DNA of 64,000 nt, taken from the NCBI GenBank assembly GCA_015272325.1, contig JACYLU010000002.1, forward strand, positions 124,001-188,000. The letters run 5' to 3'. Below the pieces are notes generated by a model. That model ran no database searches, had not been told where the DNA came from, and was given only the letters and a program-made list of their open reading frames with translations. The DNA is from Synechococcales cyanobacterium C42_A2020_086 (GTDB lineage Bacteria; Cyanobacteriota; Cyanobacteriia; Elainellales; Elainellaceae). Positions 34,081-46,075 of this stretch are shown here, in pieces. Every line of letters begins with the position of its first letter. The first letter of the stretch is position 1. Position numbers and translations under genes: made by a program.

Positions 34081-34373
34081 AGGAGGGGTTGCGGAGGGGA
34101 GCGACATGGTAAGTTTCAATTACCACACCAAAACCTGCCATAAAGCTCAATACCGCATCCGCAACTGGTCTGAGAACGCTGGCTGCCAACAATAGGGCAA
34201 CGCCGCAATGTGTTCCCCACTGCTCACGTCTTTAACAGAGACATTCATTGTCACAGCAGGAGAGGTCGTCCAGAAACATCCCCTCTTGTCGATAGCTATC
34301 CAGAGGGGTGCAGTCGATACCAAGGCGTTGGGCGATCGCATTAGCAACAACGGCAAAACGCTGGCGAAACTTA

Positions 34374-34431
34374 TAGATAAAGCAGAAGATGACCTTGCCA
34401 TGTAGATAAAGCAGAAGATGACCTTGCCATG
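34374..34431 (+). repeat. 29-base tandem duplication
   Basis: Two exact copies of a 29-base unit beginning TAGATAAAGCAGAAG (34374-34402, 34403-34431). The length is not a multiple of three and shifts the reading frame of the oxidoreductase pseudogene. Confidence 0.95.
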
Positions 34432-34642
34432 GCGCACGGAAGGCCCGACTACAAATAATCCTGGAGTAATGGTAGATTCATCCTCTTCAGTTAATCTGGC
34501 GTAGCCCTCAGACCAGTTAAACAAATGGGCAATTTGCTTCAAGCTACCCTCAAATCCAGTGCAGAGAATCGGTTGAGTTGGGCTGACCCACTGGTTGTAT
34601 TTGCTGTAAACGACGTAACCACCAGGAACTGCTTCTACTGCT

Positions 34643-34686
34643 TCAATGGCGGCATTTCCAATCATCAATGGCGGCATTTCCAATCA
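34643..34686 (+). repeat. 22-base tandem duplication
   Basis: Two exact copies of a 22-base unit beginning TCAATGGCGGCATTTCC (34643-34664, 34665-34686). It also shifts the frame of the oxidoreductase pseudogene. Confidence 0.95.
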
Positions 34687-34810
34687 AGTCTAACCGCCCT
34701 GTGGAGTAGCAAAGCTCAATCCGCTGTAGCGTATAGGGAGATAGAGAAATACTGGGATCTGTGTCGGGAGCAGAAATCCGATGGCATCAATCACGACAGG
34801 TATTCCTTCC

Positions 34811-36268
34811 CTATCGATGCCAGAAGGTACTGCCGTCGGGCTGGTCGATGACAGTGATGCCAGCGGCTTGCAATTCATGACGAATGCGATCGCTCTCGGT
34901 ATAGCGTTTTTCCTGACGAGCTTGTTGTCGTTGTTGCAGCAGAGATTCAATCCAACTAACATCAATGTCTGGCTTAGGGATGGATGCTGGCTGAATGTCT
35001 AAACCGAAGACTTGTGCCAGGTAAGTCAGGGTTTGTGATTTCTGTTGTAACTGTCTATCGGCTAGCTCTGACGAGCCTTGATAGCTGCGTAAATTGGACT
35101 CTCGCTTTAGAGACTTAGCTAACTCAAATAGTACGGCTAATCCTGCTGCCGTATTCAAATCATCATCCATTGCGGTTTGAAAGCGATGAACTGATTCAGC
35201 ATCCAGTTCACCAGGAATTGGCATCTGAGCAGATAGATTAAGTTGTTGTCAATCTAATGTCAGCGCCTCTTTCAGTGTTTGCCAACCCTTCTCAGCGGCA
35301 ATAATGGCATGTTTTGTGAAATCCAACGGCTTACGGTAGTGGGCTTGCAGCACAAACAGCCGGATTGCCATGGGATCGATTGGTTGTGGGTATTCTGACC
35401 ACTTGCCCTCCAGCAAATCCTGAATCGTGGTGAAATTGCCCAGAGACTTGGACATCTTTTCGCCGTTCACCGTCACCATGCCATTGTGCAACCAGTAGTT
35501 TGCCAGAGGTTTTCCTGTCAACACTTCCGATTGAGCGATTTCATTGTCATGATGGGGAAAGACCAGGTCACCTCCTCCCCCATGGATGTCGATCGTTTCT
35601 CCCAATCGCGCTCGAATCATTGCCGAGCATTCGATATGCCACCCCGGTCGCCCCGGCCCCCAAGGTGACTCCCACGCGGGTTCACCCGGTTTTGCCGCTT
35701 TCCAGAGGGCAAAGTCAAACGGGTCTCGCTTCTGACGTTCTGGATCGTCGGGGTCAACTCGTCCGCCTGCCCCTGCTTGCATCTGCTCAAGTTGCCGTCC
35801 CGAAAGTTTGCCATAGTCTGCAAACCGCCGCACGTTGTAGTAAACATTGCCTGCGATGGCATAGGCATATCCCTTCTCTTCCAGCGCCCGAATCAATTGA
35901 TGAATGTCTGAAATATGTTCCGTCACACGGGGATACTCATCGGCATCCAGAACATTAAGTCGCCGAATATCTCGAAAATAGGCAGCAATGTAGCGATCGC
36001 TGACTGCCTGCATGGTTGCTCCCTCTGCTTGAGCGCGATTCAGAATCTTGTCATCAATGTCGGTGAAGTTTTGCACGTAGCGTACCTGATAGCCACGCCA
36101 TTGCAGATATCGCCGCACCACATCCCAATTGATGTAAGAGCGGGCATGCCCCAAATGGCAGTCGTCATACACGGTCACCCCGCAGCAATACATCGTGACC
36201 TTCCCCGGTTCATGGGACGTAAACAGTTCTTTGCGGCGAGTCAACGTGTTGTAGAAGATAAGGCTCAT
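34811..36268 (-). pseudogene. cysS: Cysteinyl-tRNA synthetase with in-frame TGA
   Basis: A 485-codon class I aminoacyl-tRNA synthetase frame (ATG 36268 to stop 34811) interrupted by one TGA at 35249-35251, codon 340. The catalytic part before it is complete: the CHLGHA (HIGH) motif, zinc ligands in [16 protein letters not shown] and FPHHDNE, and the KMSKSLGN loop. After the TGA the same frame continues through the anticodon-binding part (ALDAESVHRFQTAMDDDLNT) to STFWHR. Only one base change would restore it. It shares a Zur-like operator with the divergent ccmM paralogue. Read literally it makes a 339-residue truncated protein without the tRNA-binding end; a sequencing error is possible. Confidence 0.75.
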
Positions 36269-36330
36269 AGAGGTGGAGGGAGAGTTTAGAATAAGCGGTC
36301 TGGCGATCGCATTTTTGGGTAGAATAAATA

Positions 36331-36350
36331 TGAGAATGATTATCATTTTA
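36331..36350. promoter_or_regulatory. Zur-like box, divergent cysS/ccmM
   Basis: TGAGAATGATTATCATTTTA contains the palindromic core AATGATTATCATT and fits the cyanobacterial Zur consensus TGATAATnATTATCA as I know it. It lies 10 bases before the ccmM-like ATG and 62 bases before the cysS ATG, so one site could repress both. Confidence 0.75.
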
Positions 36351-36357
36351 ACAAATT

Positions 36358-37296
36358 ATGGATGTTCATACTCTTCCTGCACCTCCCACGCCCTGGGCAC
36401 AGCAACTCGTTGAACCCACCATTGATCCAGGTGTCTATATTCATCCGCTGACCAATGTGATTGGCGATGTGCGGATCGGGGCGCAGGTACACATTGCACC
36501 CGGAGTTTCGATTCGGGCCGATGAGGGGATGCCATTTTACATTGGGGCAAATGTCAATATTCAAGATGGTGTGGTGATTCACGGATTAGAGCAAGGACGG
36601 GTTACTGGTGATGACGGTGAATCTTACTCTGTTTGGATTGGAGACAACGCTTCGATTACCCACATGGCGCTAATTCATGGCCCTGCCTATGTGGGAAAAG
36701 GCTGCTTCATTGGTTTTCGTTCTACGGTGTTTAATGCTCATGTTGGTGATGGCTGTATTGTCATGTCCCATGCGTTGATTGAACATGTGGAAATTCCACC
36801 GGGTAAATATGTGGCATCGGGATCGGTTATCGTGCACCAGCAACAGGCCGATCGCCTGCCGAATGTGCAGGAAGCAGATTCCCAGTTTGCCCGTCACGTG
36901 GTCAGCATCAATCAAAAACTGCGCCAGGGATATCTGTGTGCAGAAGATGACGTATGCCTTGCCAGCATTCGCAACGAACCGAATGGACACCTCATGATTC
37001 GGGCTAATTCTGGCAACGGTTATCACCCATCCTCACAGCTCGATCCTCAAGCGATTGCCTGGATTCAGACGATGTTGAACCAGCGATTTTACATTGGGGT
37101 GGAACGAGCAGATACGCGGCGATTTCGCGCTAACTCCTGGACAGAGTGTGGAGTGATCAAAACAATCCAGGAAAGAGATGCAATTGCTACGGTGGGGCAA
37201 CTTTTACGAAACCATCCGCAGCAGTATGTGCGTTTGTTTAGTATCAATCCGGTCACACGACAACGCGGTAATGTCTTATTGATTCAGCATCCTTAA
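36358..37296 (+). CDS. ccmM: Short CcmM paralogue: gamma-carbonic anhydrase plus one SSUL domain
   Basis: A 312-residue protein. Residues 1-200 are a left-handed beta-helix gamma-carbonic anhydrase domain of the CcmM type; metal-ligand histidines are at 75, 102 and 107, and a C194/C200 pair matches the disulfide cysteines of active CcmM. Residues about 226-312 form one Rubisco-small-subunit-like (SSUL) module with [14 protein letters not shown]. Normal CcmM carries three to five SSULs, so this copy could bind Rubisco but crosslink it poorly. It sits behind a Zur-like box among zinc-related paralogues, which suggests a back-up or alternative-metal carbonic anhydrase. That role is inference. 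Confidence 0.85.
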
Positions 37297-37324: not shown

Positions 37325-37708
37325 TTATCGCCTTGTAACTTCGTTGGAGGTTATGCTAGTTGGAAGTGAAGCTCGATTAAAGAAACAACTTCTGGCTCCT
37401 GTGTGACAGGCAACATTTCCAACTTGCTCAATTTTGAGCAAAAGGGTGTCAGCATCGCAATCGTAATACACCTCCTTTACTTTTTGAACATGACCGGAAG
37501 TTGCTCCCTTGTGCCAAAGCTCATCACGGGAGCGACTCCAGTAGTAGGCTTCTCCCGTTTCTAAGGTTCGCTGAATTGCTTCCCGATTCATCCAGGCCAT
37601 CATCAAGACAGTGTGATCTCGATAGTCTTGAGCGATCGCTGGAATCAAACCTTGACTGTTAAACTTGAGTTGTTCTATCCATAAAAAACTTGAATTCATT
37701 TTTACCAT
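37325..37708 (-). CDS. hisI: Phosphoribosyl-AMP cyclohydrolase HisI (stand-alone)
   Basis: A 127-residue enzyme for the third step of histidine synthesis, opening the purine ring of PR-AMP. Key blocks: [18 protein letters not shown] (residues about 28-45), [22 protein letters not shown] and the zinc cysteines YDCDAD and [11 protein letters not shown]. Cyanobacteria usually have a fused HisIE; this copy has no HisE domain, which fits a second, condition-specific copy. Its start is 14 bp after the COG0523 stop, so it ends a likely sufE-COG0523-folE-COG0523-hisI operon. The zinc ligands are kept, so it is not a zinc-free replacement. Confidence 0.88.
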
Positions 37709-37721
37709 TTGGTTTAGATCA

Positions 37722-38684
37722 TCACTTGGTTAAACAATTATTCAAAGACTGAAGCAGAAATAGGGCATCCAGTTTACGGCCAATTAACACGATTTGATTC
37801 TTAGGAGCAGTTGTCCATTCGCTGTCATCAATTGTGAATCGTTTACCACTAAGTTGGAATAAATGACGCTTGGGACTTTCGGCAAACCAGAGTACCCCTT
37901 TTGCTCGAAACACAGTGTCAGGCAATTGATAATCTAAAAACTGCTGAAATTTCTTCAAGGCAATGGGGCGATCGCTCTGGAAAGATACAGACATGAATCC
38001 GTCGTTGTTTAAGTGCTGGGTATTGGGGTTGAGTTGTGTGCCAGCATCTAAAGCACTATCGAGGGTAGAGAGATTGATATCAAGAATGAGCGACAAAGGG
38101 ACTTTACCATGCTGCGATCGTAAAATTCGAGCACCGTTTTTTACAGAGTAAAAATACTTTTCTAGCGCCTCTAATTTTCGTTCAGATACTAAGTCAGTTT
38201 TATTCAGTAGAATAATATCTCCATACAGGATTTGGTTCATCGCTGCGCCACTGTTGTAATGTTCATCCGGCGTAAAAGTTTCAGCGTCAACCACTGTCAA
38301 GATGGCATCTAGCTGAGTCAAGTCTCTTAAGTCTGTTCCTAAAAATGTCAGGGCGATTGGCAGGGGATCGGCAACTCCAGTAGTTTCAACGACCAAATAC
38401 TCAATCCGGTCACGCCGTTCTAAAACCCGATAGACTGCATCAGACAAACTATCATTAATCGTGCAACAAATACAGCCATTCGTCAGTTCAATCATGTCCT
38501 CCTCAACGGTAATGAGGAACTGACTGTCAATGTTAATATCACCAAATTCATTGACTAAAACAGCAACTTTGTAAGCTTCAAAGTTTTGCAAAATATAGTT
38601 CAACAGGGTTGTCTTGCCACTACCCAAAAATCCAGTGATGATAGTGACAGGGAGTTTCTGATCAGCGGTTGAGAGATTAGACAT
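37722..38684 (-). CDS. COG0523-family GTPase (putative zinc metallochaperone)
   Basis: A 320-residue G3E GTPase. The P-loop [13 protein letters not shown] (residues about 18-30), the metal motif [10 protein letters not shown] (CxCC, about 69-78), [12 protein letters not shown] (switch) and NKTDLV (NKxD) are complete, and the C-terminal CobW domain follows. These proteins use GTP hydrolysis to deliver metal to client enzymes. Next to hisI and folE, two zinc enzymes, and under a Zur-type operon, a zinc-delivery role is likely. It lacks the His-rich stretch of its neighbour at 39502. Confidence 0.88.
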
Positions 38685-38764: not shown

Positions 38765-39403
38765 CTAATGAAAAGATGGAGTATGACGAATCAGATCCAG
38801 AAACTCCTGGCGGGTTCTGGCATCTTCAGCAAATACGCCTTGCATTGAGCTAGTCACTGTCCAAGAACCTGGCTTTTGTACACCGCGCATTACCATACAC
38901 ATGTGGGTTGCTTCTACTACAACAGCGACCCCCTGGGGCTTGAGCAAGCCTTGCAAAGCATCAGCAATCTGCTGAGTCAGGCGTTCCTGGACTTGCAGAC
39001 GACGGGCATACATTTCACAAATTCGAGCGATTTTAGATAGCCCAATCACTTTGCCGTTGGGAATGTAGGCAACATGGGCACGCCCCAAAACTGGCAAAAT
39101 GTGATGTTCGCAGGAGCTGAATAGATCAATGTCCCGCACAAGCACCATTTCATTGGTATCTTCGTGGAAGACAGCGCCATTGAGCAACTCATCTAGGGAT
39201 TGTTGATAGCCAGAGGTGAGGAATTTGAGGGCTTTGACAACTCGCTTAGGAGTGTCGCGCAATCCTTCACGATCAGGGTCTTCACCCATACCTAATAGCA
39301 GGGTGCGAACGGCTTGCTGCATCTCTGCTTCAGAAACACGCGGCTTAGATTCTGTAATCACCGCTTGCTTGCGCATATCATTCGGAAAAACGGATAGTGT
39401 CAT
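38765..39403 (-). CDS. folE: GTP cyclohydrolase I
   Basis: A 212-residue FolE (type IA) that makes 7,8-dihydroneopterin triphosphate for folate. Diagnostic blocks are [36 protein letters not shown] (zinc Cys and His), [23 protein letters not shown] and [18 protein letters not shown] (third zinc Cys). ATG at 39403 is preferred; an upstream in-frame start at 39484 adds a poor extension. All zinc ligands are present, so the paralogue is zinc-dependent, and flanking COG0523 GTPases may load it. Confidence 0.9.
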
Positions 39404-39501
39404 GGGTGAAATTGGATGAAGGACATCAGTTGTAAGGATAAGGGGCGTGGTCAGCAATCCCCTCCCTCCAGCAGAAAACTGCACTGCTGAAAGAATTCGG
39501 A

Positions 39502-40569
39502 TCAGGCAAGGCAGGCGGCTAACTGTTGTCGCAGTTCATCTGCATCCAGATTGCGCCCAATCAAAACCATCTGGTTTTTGCGTGGTGTGCGCCATTCGTC
39601 TCCTTGAAGGTCAAACCGGGGACCGCTGAGCTGGAAGATATTACGGAGATCACTTTCTGCAAACCAGAGAATCCCTTTGGCTCGGAATACCTCCTTTGGC
39701 AACTGCTCTTGCAAAAACGTTTCAAACTTTTTCACGTCAAAGGGGCGATCGCTCTCAAAGGAAATAGATACAAATCCATCATTCTCTAGGTGAGCTGAAT
39801 GGTGATGATGATGTTCATGGGGATGATGGGGATGAGCTTCATGGGGAGCATGGGAGTGATGATGGTCGTGCTCATGTTGGGTTTGCTCAATCTCTTCTTG
39901 AACAAGATCCGCATAGGCTGCTGGATTGTTATAGCCCACATCTAAAATGAGGGGCAGCGGCACTTTCCCATACTGGCTATGAAGAATCCTGGCTCCCACC
40001 TTTACTTCACTGATATAAGCTTCTAGTTCTTTGATTTTCTCAGGCAATGCCAGATCGGTTTTGTTTAAGATCACGACATCGCCGTAAGCAATCTGCTTAA
40101 ATGCAGCTTCGCTATCAAAATAATCAGGCGTAAAAGTTTCGGCATCAACAACGGTGATAATTGAATCTAGTCGAGTGAAATCGCGTAATTCAGTGCCCAA
40201 GAATGTGAGGATAATGGGCAGGGGATCGGCGACTCCCGTGGTTTCAATTACCATGTAATCTACGCGATCGTCCCGCTCCAGCACGTTATACACCGCATCC
40301 ACTAATCCATCATTAATCGTACAGCAAATACAGCCATTGCTCAGTTCCACCATGTCCTCATCCATCGAAACGAGCAACTGGCTGTCAATGTTAATGTCGC
40401 CAAATTCATTCACTAAGACAGCAACTTTTAAATCCTGACGGTTATTCAGAATATGATTCAATAAAGTTGTTTTTCCACTGCCGAGAAACCCGGTGATGAT
40501 TGTGACAGGCATGCCTCGCTTGGGGATATCCAGATCGGCGGGTTTGGAAAGAGTCGCTGTGTTAGTCAT
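39502..40569 (-). CDS. COG0523-family GTPase with His-rich metal loop
   Basis: A 355-residue G3E GTPase with the same core as the gene at 37722: [38 protein letters not shown]. Residues about 225-270 insert a metal-binding stretch rich in His ([17 protein letters not shown] and HEHHHHHS) before the CobW C-terminal domain. His-rich COG0523 proteins of the ZNG1/YeiR/YciC group bind several zinc ions. The two GTPases are clear duplicates, differing mainly in this loop. Confidence 0.9.
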
Positions 40570-40767: not shown

Positions 40768-41223
40768 TCAGCATTCGTCATAGAGAGCCTGCACCTTCTG
40801 CTGCATCGTGTGAAAAATGTTGTAAAAACCATTGGCACGAGAAGAAGTCAAGCTGACATCGAGTCCAGTTCGCTGAATGAAATCGGGTTTTAGCTGCATG
40901 ATTTCCGCAGGTGTTAATCCGCTCAATCCCTCGACCAGCAGCCCCACTAATCCCTTTGTCAGTTGAGAGTCGGAATCACCCTGAAAACTGACTTTGCCTT
41001 GTTCTAGACCAGCCGTCACATACACTTGAGACACACAACCCGGCACGCGGTTGGCCGCTACCTTCTGAGTGGCAGGAAACGGTGGCAGGTGCTTGGCAAA
41101 CCAAAGCAGGTACTCATAGCGCCGCTTCGGTTCCGAAATCTGTTGGAACCGTTGGACAATCTGCTCAAGCGAGGCAGGCAAGGGCTGGGAGACAGTCGGC
41201 ATATCAGTTCCAAGATCAAGCAT
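40768..41223 (-). CDS. sufE: SufE family protein
   Basis: A 151-residue SufE-like sulfur acceptor. The conserved blocks RYEYLLWFAKHLPPFP and NRVPGCVSQVYV, with the sulfur-accepting Cys near residue 63, are present, with SRANGFYNIFHTM at the end. SufE takes sulfur from cysteine desulfurase SufS for Fe-S assembly. It heads the likely zinc operon, with a Zur-like box 8 bases before ATG 41223 (29 bases before an alternative ATG at 41202). Why SufE is in the regulon is unclear; some SufE-like proteins cooperate with metal transfer. Confidence 0.85.
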   Translation of the reverse strand: MLDLGTDMPTVSQPLPASLEQIVQRFQQISEPKRRYEYLLWFAKHLPPFPATQKVAANRVPGCVSQVYVTAGLEQGKVSFQGDSDSQLTKGLVGLLVEGLSGLTPAEIMQLKPDFIQRTGLDVSLTSSRANGFYNIFHTMQQKVQALYDEC

Positions 41224-41230
41224 TCATTAA

Positions 41231-41247
41231 AATGATAATCATTCTCA
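41231..41247 (-). promoter_or_regulatory. Zur-like box before sufE operon
   Basis: On the minus strand this reads TGAGAATGATTATCATT, identical over 17 bases to the boxes at 36331 and 43980. It probably controls sufE and the genes downstream to hisI. Confidence 0.75.
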
Positions 41248-41689: not shown

Positions 41690-42091
41690 TCATAAGGTAA
41701 TCACCTGATCTGGCGGATTGCTGCTTAATGCTGTGTATAAATCGGGAAAACAACCAACGGTCACGCCTTCCACCACCTCTTTGACCGTACAGTTTCCAGG
41801 TTCTTTGCGTCCGGTTCCGTCTGGATTGCACCAGCGTGGCTCACCTTCTGCCAGATTGCGTTCCAGGGCACACATGTCGCACATCATTAACAGAATGGTT
41901 TGTTCCTTGGCTACCTTGGCCAGTCGTTCTCCAATCGGATCGCCCTTTCGCAACACAAAGCAGTTGTCATCAAAGAAAAACATTCCGACCACTTCAACGC
42001 CATGTACGCCTACCTCTAACTGGGGCAGAATCATTTGCCCTAGCTTGTAGGTGCCACCGCGAGGATGGGCGAAAACGTATGCAACTTTCAT
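41690..42091 (-). CDS. DsrE-like protein
   Basis: A 133-residue protein with the DsrE/DsrF-like fold pattern: an N-terminal VAYVFAHPRGGTYKLGQMI strand-loop, LLMMCDMCALERNLAEG with two Cys, a loop with WCNPDG and NCTVKEVVEG, and the C-terminal VGCFPDLYTALSS.. ending DQVITL. It resembles a DsrE-related group (SaoD-like). DsrE proteins carry sulfur on a Cys. It is 12 bp downstream of thrS and upstream of the zinc-ribbon gene, so it belongs to the same putative Zur operon. Confidence 0.7.
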   Translation of the reverse strand: MKVAYVFAHPRGGTYKLGQMILPQLEVGVHGVEVVGMFFFDDNCFVLRKGDPIGERLAKVAKEQTILLMMCDMCALERNLAEGEPRWCNPDGTGRKEPGNCTVKEVVEGVTVGCFPDLYTALSSNPPDQVITL

Positions 42092-42103: not shown

Positions 42104-43966
42104 TCAAATTTGTTGTTTTGTTTGAATCGCGTGTTGCATTTTTTCCTGAAGTTCTGACAGCGTTAATGAGCCAAGTTCTCCCGATTGGCGGGTTCGCACA
42201 CTTAAGGTCTGGTTTTCCACCTCTCGCTTACCAACCACCACAACGATGGGAACTTTTTCAAGTTCTGCGGTGCGAATTTGTTTTCCTAAACGCTCTCCAC
42301 TCGCATCAACTTCTGCTCGATAGCCCAGTTGTTTAAGGTGTTGGGCGATCGCAGTTGCATAGTCCCGCTGTTCATCACTGACAGGCAAGAGTCTCGCCTG
42401 GACTGGAGCTAACCAGAGGGGAAAGTCTCCCGCATAATGCTCAATCAAAATACCGAAGAACCGTTCCAGTGAGCCGAAGATAGCCCGGTGAATCATAATC
42501 GGACGCTGCCGTGAACCATCGGCTGCTACATATTCCAACTCAAAGCGTTCCGGCAAGTTAAAGTCCACTTGAATAGTGGAGCACTGCCATTGACGGGCGA
42601 TCGCATCTTTGATCTTGATGTCGATTTTGGGGCCATAAAATGCACCACCGCCCTCATCCGTCACATAGTCCCAACCCTTGGTATCTAAGGCCTGAACCAG
42701 CGCATTAGTGGCTAGTTCCCAAATGTTGTCCGTACCGACCGACTTGCCAGGACGAGTGGAAAGGTAGACCTCATATTCAGTGAAACCAAAATCCGACAAA
42801 ATCTGCTCAGTCAAATTCAACACGCCCAAAATCTCGTCTGCCACCTGTTCTGGCAAACAGAAAATGTGAGCATCATCTTGAGTGAAGCCGCGCACCCGCA
42901 TCAAACCGTGCAACACACCCGATCGCTCGTAGCGATACACGGTGCCCAATTCTGCCCAGCGAATCGGCAGTGCCCGATAGGAGTGCAAATGACTTTGATA
43001 GGTCAACACATGAAACGGGCAATTCATCGGCTTTAGCTGGTACTGCTGTGCCTCAATCTCCATCTGGTCAAACATATTTTCGCGGTAAAAGTCAAAGTGA
43101 CCCGATGTTTTCCAGAGATTGAGATTGGCAATATGGGGCGTGTAAAGCAGTTCATACCCGGCATCCAAATGCGCTTTGCGCCAGTAATCTTCAATCAAGA
43201 GCCGCATCCGTGCCCCTCTGGGATGCCAGAAGACAAGTCCACCCCCTGCATCCTCCTGAATACTAAACAGATCCAGATCTTGTCCCAATCTGCGATGGTC
43301 GCGGCGCTTGGCTTCTTCTTTTTGGGTGAGATACGCCTGGAGTTGTTCTTGAGTTTCCCAGGCTGTGCCGTAAATCCGCTGCAACTGCGGTTTAGTTTCA
43401 TCACCACGCCAATAGGCTCCCGCTACACCCTCCAGGGCAAAAGCATCGGGGTTAATTTCACCCGTCGAGTTGAGATGTGGTCCGGCACACAAGTCCCACC
43501 AACACTCCTTGCCTATTCGCTTCTGGGTCAGGGTTTCTGCTGTGATGTGAAATAAGGAAGCTTCTGACACTCCTTTGAGTGTATCAACATAGCCAATGAA
43601 GTAGCGCGTGATGGGTTCATTCGCGGGAATGCTATCGAGGATTTCTAGCTTGTAGGGTTCGTTGAGCTGTTCAATCTCTGCGCGAATTTGTTCGCGATCG
43701 ACGACTTCTCGAATGATCGGCAGATTTGCACAAATAATGCGCCGCATCTCAGCTTCAATCTGAACGAGGTCATCAGGGGTAAAGGGTTCTGGACGGTCAA
43801 AGTCATAGTAGAAGCCAGTGTCTGTCCAGGGTCCAATCGTCACCTTTGTCTCTGGAAACAGTGCTTGTACTGCCATTGCCAGCACATGAGCGCAGGTATG
43901 CCGAATCCGTAGCAGCGTTTCAGTACTGGTTTGATTGGAAGAGGACTGAAGGACAGAACCCATCAT
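42104..43966 (-). CDS. thrS: Threonyl-tRNA synthetase, Zur-associated second copy
   Basis: A 620-residue class II synthetase. It begins with the editing (N2) domain ([17 protein letters not shown]), without the TGS domain of the E. coli enzyme. The catalytic core shows the zinc ligands in [27 protein letters not shown] and [15 protein letters not shown], and the last ~100 residues form the anticodon domain. A Zur-like box lies 14 bases before ATG 43966. In Anabaena a second thrS induced by zinc shortage has been described, and this gene's setting fits that. Zinc ligands are retained, so it still needs zinc. Confidence 0.92.
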
Positions 43967-43979
43967 TGCAGGCGAAAGG

Positions 43980-43996
43980 AATGATAATCATTCTCA
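43980..43996 (-). promoter_or_regulatory. Zur-like box before thrS operon
   Basis: Minus-strand TGAGAATGATTATCATT, 17 of 17 identical to the boxes at 36331 and 41231, 14 bases from the thrS start codon. Confidence 0.75.

Positions 43997-44966: not shown

Positions 44967-46075
<1,109 letters not shown>

Follow-up and report, generated by a model that had tools for sequence, protein, structure and literature searches.

The locus considered here raises the question of why a cyanobacterium should carry, besides its regular CcmM, a shortened version of this carboxysome protein in the midst of a cluster of zinc-related genes. We addressed it in a stretch of 64,000 nucleotides, hereafter the window, from the Synechococcales cyanobacterium C42_A2020_086, in which the short ccmM gene occupies positions 36358–37296 of the plus strand and encodes 312 amino acids followed by a stop codon. 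Carbonic anhydrase (CA) makes heavy demands on the zinc supply of CO2-fixing cells, and an earlier note on this DNA had proposed that the short protein could replace a zinc-limited CA in the carboxysome, possibly with another metal. Our analysis makes it somewhat probable that the short CcmM is a Zur-repressed, low-zinc paralog of CcmM, which would serve as a backup CA anchored to Rubisco in the carboxysome.

The N-terminal part of the protein, residues 1–205 (36358–36972, plus strand), is a γ-CA domain by alignment with the Thermosynechococcus CcmM structure 3KWC, which was also its top match among solved structures (residues 2–207, E 5e-98). It is followed by a single SSUL module, the only one recovered in an HMM search, at residues 233–312 (37054–37293, plus strand), with the stop codon directly after residue 312; residues 228–312 also match the CcmM SSUL structures 6HBA and 9FWV. 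The earlier note's reading of the protein as a γ-CA domain with just one SSUL was thereby borne out, and the residues H75, H102, H107, C194 and C200 that it had named fell exactly at those positions in the alignment with 3KWC. The codons of the three metal-ligand histidines lie at 36580–36582, 36661–36663 and 36676–36678, and those of the cysteine pair at 36937–36939 and 36955–36957 (all plus strand). All 11 active-CcmM residues checked in this alignment are present (R53, D55, N67, Q69, D70, H75, H102, H107, N126, C194 and C200); that is, the three His ligands, the catalytic N, Q, D and R residues and the C-terminal Cys pair of an active γ-CA are in place. The protein scores 37.4 against the Pfam RuBisCO_small model, passing the cut-off of 27, and 475.7 against the NCBIfam CcmM model, below the cut-off of 550, and it is thereby recognizable as a CcmM, though a short one. 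Within the SSUL module the RRFR arginines are retained, while one of the two cysteines is retained and the second lost. Most of the island copies described below likewise have only one of these two redox cysteines, Gloeocapsopsis dulcis and L047 having both, and such SSULs, that of the window protein included, probably lack the disulfide switch found in CcmM. An AlphaFold model computed with 8 close sequences reached a pLDDT of only 56, and no conclusion rests on this poor model.

Like the CcmM of β-carboxysomes (M58, as in Thermosynechococcus (3KWC) and Synechococcus PCC 7942), the short protein has an N-terminal CcmM-type γ-CA/γCAL domain, with all catalytic residues, and a module that is an SSUL by sequence. 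It differs from M58 in possessing one C-terminal SSUL rather than three to five, an incomplete SSUL disulfide pair and a Zur-type operator, and in lying outside of the main ccm locus: its gene is part of the zinc island on contig C30, whereas the full CcmM is encoded on C22. The earlier note had regarded the lack of another ccmM in the genome as fatal to its proposal; the full-length gene on C22 was found, and encodes three SSULs. A γ-CA domain with one SSUL, occurring as a second copy beside a full CcmM, is the architecture of the single-SSLD satellite CcmMs of Leptolyngbya, Acaryochloris, Microcoleus and Rubidibacter, and we recovered the Acaryochloris marina member on a plasmid. Such single-SSUL satellites were reportedly described by Long et al. 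in 2011. Sommer et al. (2017) extended the set and suggested recruitment to Rubisco (PMC5853843). The accessible parts of these earlier accounts carry no mention of zinc, whereas here the satellite comes with an operator and a linkage to zinc genes.

What the earlier note called a zinc-type operator is the sequence TGAGAATGATTATCA at 36331–36345, a Zur-type box 12 bp before the ccmM start that is common to ccmM and the divergent cysS. The 5.9 Mb genome contains three exact copies of it, all within the zinc island, the other two standing before the sufE-cobW-folE-cobW-hisI run (41233–41247) and before thrS (43982–43996); a weaker site with 2 mismatches precedes hemB (46056–46070). Allowing up to 3 mismatches, 26 matches were observed in the window against 6.6 expected. 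As in a Zur regulon, the box of the short ccmM stands in the promoter and is conserved in relatives: it lies 7–13 bp before the ATG in all 10 island copies with upstream sequence, those of the window and G. dulcis included. No such operator was found upstream of the four full ccmM genes checked, where the best matches had 5–6 mismatches.

The gene content of the island is consistent with this operator. On the minus strand, beyond the short ccmM, lie hisI (37325–37708), the last gene of its run, a COG0523/CobW-type GTPase (37722–38684), folE encoding GTP cyclohydrolase I (38765–39484), another COG0523/CobW-type GTPase with a His-rich stretch (39502–40569) and a SufE/CsdE-like gene (40768–41223), which is the first of the run. 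These are followed, on the same strand, by thrS (42104–43966) with a DsrE-family gene downstream (41690–42091), and by hemB (44967–46046). Further copies of thrS, hemB, folE and cysS each exist elsewhere in the genome, those of thrS and folE in the island being second copies. The other hemB is of the zinc type, with the zinc cysteines DTCLCEYTSHGHCG, whereas the island hemB lacks them and belongs to the zinc-free type; the thrS, cysS, folE and hisI of the island retain zinc ligands, as judged by eye from their translations. The Zur regulon of Anabaena comprises COG0523, hemB2, thrS2 and folE (PMC6103462), and the island has the gene set known from Zur regulons in cyanobacteria and proteobacteria (PMC6103462, PMC2770081), although no CcmM has been reported in the Anabaena thrS2/hemB2/COG0523 operon, which has the same kinds of paralogs under Zur. 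The short ccmM is under what appears to be a zinc-starvation switch.

In this genome the island shows decay at its left end. The second cysS (CysRS; 34811–36346, minus strand, likely true start near 36268) has an in-frame TGA at 35249–35251, where L043, L044 and L048 have Trp, with homologous open frame on both sides; this may be a sequencing error, a pseudogene or read-through, and an intact cysS copy is present at C30:53568. Next to it, at 34235–34765 (minus strand), is a frameshifted Pyr_redox_3 remnant of a flavin oxidoreductase, which is intact in related islands, being near full length in L042, L043, L046, L047, L054 and L120. Several related zinc islands also contain a divergent FeoB-like GTPase/Gate protein of ~545 aa that falls well short of the FeoB cut-off (L046 8272–9912, L120 5389–7026, L043 981–2597); its gene adjoins the short ccmM in L046, lies upstream of hisI-ccmM in L120 and is absent from the window. 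The presence of this gene and the flavin oxidoreductase in several islands is a lead for ferrous iron, no more.

The remaining carboxysome genes suggest what the short CcmM might be backing up. Matches to PF00101 in the genome comprise RbcS and an adjoining SSUL-bearing protein on C18, the full CcmM on C22 and the short CcmM. The C18 protein, a frame of 443 aa, is presumably a Rubisco activase; activases bearing an SSUL are, likewise, enzymes recruited to Rubisco by one such module, but they are AAA+ proteins and not carbonic anhydrases. In the full CcmM, Asn67 is replaced by Lys, Cys194 by Ser and Cys200 by Arg, changes that characterize CcmMs thought to be inactive. The Cys pair and the absence of CcaA go with CcmM activity, and the CcmMs thought to be inactive tend to co-occur with CcaA (PMC5472144). 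CcaA is indeed encoded in the same genome, as a β-CA with the C-terminal end ...PLWLSPEQAARIYRGSAVKR and the C2 peptide ...LSPEQAARIYRG, and this end looks like the peptide that binds the γCAL domain in Synechococcus (PMC8580825). Given that the full CcmM is devoid of Asn67, Cys194 and Cys200, and that a CcaA with a targeting peptide is present, one would expect the housekeeping CA to be a zinc β-CA seated on a non-catalytic full CcmM.

Relatives of the short CcmM, drawn from a sample of genomes of which many are MAG contigs, are about 53–84% identical to the window protein and, like it, have a single SSUL. The close ones detected in the genome scan (75–84% identical) come from Leptolyngbyaceae and other cyanobacterial MAGs; one is filed as Gracilibacteria, presumably owing to a binning error. 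The divergent cysS<>ccmM pair is common to most close relatives, those with enough downstream sequence have the order hisI-cobW-folE-cobW, with a different arrangement in L044, L046 and L047, and most islands have at least two COG0523 genes. The named isolate Gloeocapsopsis dulcis AAB1 carries the same cluster and operator on a plasmid of 307 kb. More distant relatives, with about 53–57% identity to the window protein, form a group that includes A. marina MBIC10699. Its short ccmM is located on pREC2, a conjugative plasmid, where it clusters with two folE genes and with COG0523, dihydroorotase, cysS, metH and znu-type zinc-transporter genes; this plasmid stretch has 7 distinct Zur-type sites against about 0 in shuffles. 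M23 peptidases, dacB and FetB-type genes also occur in the pREC2 cluster (L119, NZ_AP026077.1). In two further members, G418 and G421, the short ccmM is downstream of hisI with a Zur-type site ahead, and in these and A. marina the site precedes hisI-ccmM or a longer run. The G418 copy (L054 8033–8974, minus strand) is interrupted in frame by a TAA at codon 56 and is otherwise intact. Four species of the genus of G002, from another family, have a conserved Zur-like site 62–165 bp upstream of the short ccmM, with no zinc-related neighbors around the gene. The sole exception is G424, with no Zur-type site within its 19.5 kb stretch. As far as sequence can tell, then, the zinc link is nearly always kept with the short CcmM, in MAGs, on two plasmids and in another family.

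Like the window protein, each of the 17 short relatives tabulated has the full set of catalytic residues. Comparison of the window gene with its island relatives gave dN/dS of about 0.03–0.05 for the CA domain and 0.11–0.22 for the SSUL where computable, and across all comparisons the values were 0.03–0.08 and mostly 0.1–0.22, respectively, with some SSUL comparisons saturated at synonymous sites. The short ccmM is conserved under purifying selection. The island copies fall into a single clade in the trees (100/100), separate from the full CcmM of the family to which they belong, and the A. marina, G002 and G418 copies form a second (100/100). A chance ORF or a truncated full-length gene is ruled out by the same-length relatives, the low dN/dS and this separate clade, and a recent truncation of the resident CcmM by the trees, in which the short form does not join the full CcmM of its family. 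The two clades may go back to separate origins of the short form or to a single one: a tree that unites them stands up to the test (p-AU 0.45 and 0.55), and they have residues P30 and A258 in common. Full CcmMs with H75 replaced by Gln and the Cys pair lost occur in G002, G298 and G426 (L073, L074, L126). The full CcmM is itself intact in the carriers G406, G407 and G391, so that the short copy, from these sequences, is not always the sole active γ-CA of its carrier. The pairing of a degenerate full CcmM with a short copy is confounded by phylogeny, as the degenerate form also occurs in relatives lacking the short copy (G410, G412, G400, G207), and we make no claim of a statistical link between the two.

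For the short CcmM we infer Zur binding, induction, CA activity and carboxysome localization. As zinc falls, Zur would leave the operator before the gene, and the short CcmM would be expressed along with the other island genes. It would form a catalytically competent γ-CA trimer, which the single SSUL of each chain would anchor to Rubisco and hence to the carboxysome matrix, there to supply CA activity while the housekeeping CcaA, held by the degenerate γ-CA domain of the full CcmM, runs short of zinc. With an intact-looking second CcmM, a Zur-type box, zinc-related paralogs and both CcaA and the full CcmM present, the earlier proposal of a replacement for a zinc-limited CA appears reasonable, and the fact that the arrangement recurs in further cyanobacteria, plasmids included, points to a backup for the zinc-dependent carboxysome enzyme. 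Its companion claim, that one SSUL would bind Rubisco without crosslinking it, is doubtful: γ-CAs are trimers, and with one SSUL per chain three SSULs per particle are expected, making crosslinking possible. The engineered γCAL-1S of Synechococcus no longer homo-condenses and retains little of the ability to condense CcaA (PMC8580825), and since this construct has the same architecture, a role as a matrix client appears likelier for the short CcmM than one as a scaffold.

The same γCAL-1S result could be turned toward a structural role, in which trimers that are short or mixed, and so carry fewer SSULs, would dilute the scaffold and make carboxysomes looser or smaller when zinc is low, with catalysis being secondary. 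We regard this as improbable, since such a role would need neither the catalytic set found in all relatives nor the stronger conservation of the CA domain. It is improbable, too, that the protein provides Rubisco-tied extra CA activity unrelated to zinc, its place in the island being incidental. This has been proposed for the satellite single-SSLD CcmMs of Rubidibacter and others by analogy with the SSUL-bearing Rca (PMC5853843), but the operator, zinc genes or both accompany the short gene in at least four genomic arrangements, two plasmids included, and G424 alone lacks the operator in the stretch examined. A further alternative is that another FUR-family protein, such as an iron-type Fur, reads the operator, and that the island answers to iron instead of zinc. 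The genome does encode four FUR-family proteins and several islands have the FeoB-like gene, but the correspondence in gene content with the Anabaena Zur regulon of COG0523, hemB2, thrS2 and folE (PMC6103462) and the znu-type genes of the A. marina cluster render this very unlikely.

Within the preferred reading of a low-zinc backup CA, the enzyme could work with Fe(II), with Co(II) or with zinc that the COG0523 GTPases supply. The short CcmM may well keep zinc, though we hold this at somewhat less than an even chance, as an extra copy favored for scarce zinc and fed by the two GTPases of the island; this alternative concerns the metal only and overlaps in probability with the preferred reading. 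A precedent is the Zur-controlled ThrS2 of Anabaena, which works in low zinc and uses zinc but no other tested metal (PMC4787780), and the two or more COG0523 genes of most islands point the same way. As the metal ligands equal those of ordinary active CcmM, the sequence gives no pointer to a non-zinc metal. Against retention of zinc, the clearly zinc-free hemB indicates that other chemistry does replace zinc in this island, and γ-CAs can work with Fe(II) (PMC2770081). A tentative and on balance unlikely extension is a carboxysome metal switch, with CcaA functionally replaced in low zinc by a γ-CA that holds Fe(II) or Co(II) and acts as a Rubisco-tethered client, possibly also in mixed trimers with the degenerate full CcmM, in the manner of apo-ThrS1 pairing with ThrS2 in Anabaena, and with plasmids carrying the whole kit from one cyanobacterium to another.

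The two elements of this system, single-SSUL satellite CcmMs and Zur-linked γ-CAs of proteobacteria, are already known. The latter, the Cam paralogs of Haas et al. (2009), have been proposed for a low-zinc role (PMC2770081); they similarly occur in Zur/COG0523 clusters with cysS, hisI, hemB, folE and thrS paralogs, but have no SSUL and no reported carboxysome link. For their union, a Zur-linked CA addressed to the carboxysome and encoded on chromosome and plasmids, we found no earlier report, nor any zinc-ccmM link, in the literature searched, which consisted mostly of papers available without subscription. If the short CcmM is indeed a Zur-controlled backup CA, a definite gene would link zinc supply to carbon fixation, the puzzling single-SSUL satellites, on record since 2011, would gain a function, and nature would offer carboxysome engineering a model of a minimal enzyme tethered to Rubisco. 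Culturable carriers exist in G. dulcis and A. marina. Two of the short relatives (L118 14001–14954 and L119 14001–14936) are publicly annotated as 'ribulose bisphosphate carboxylase small subunit', a label that conceals their carbonic anhydrase part.
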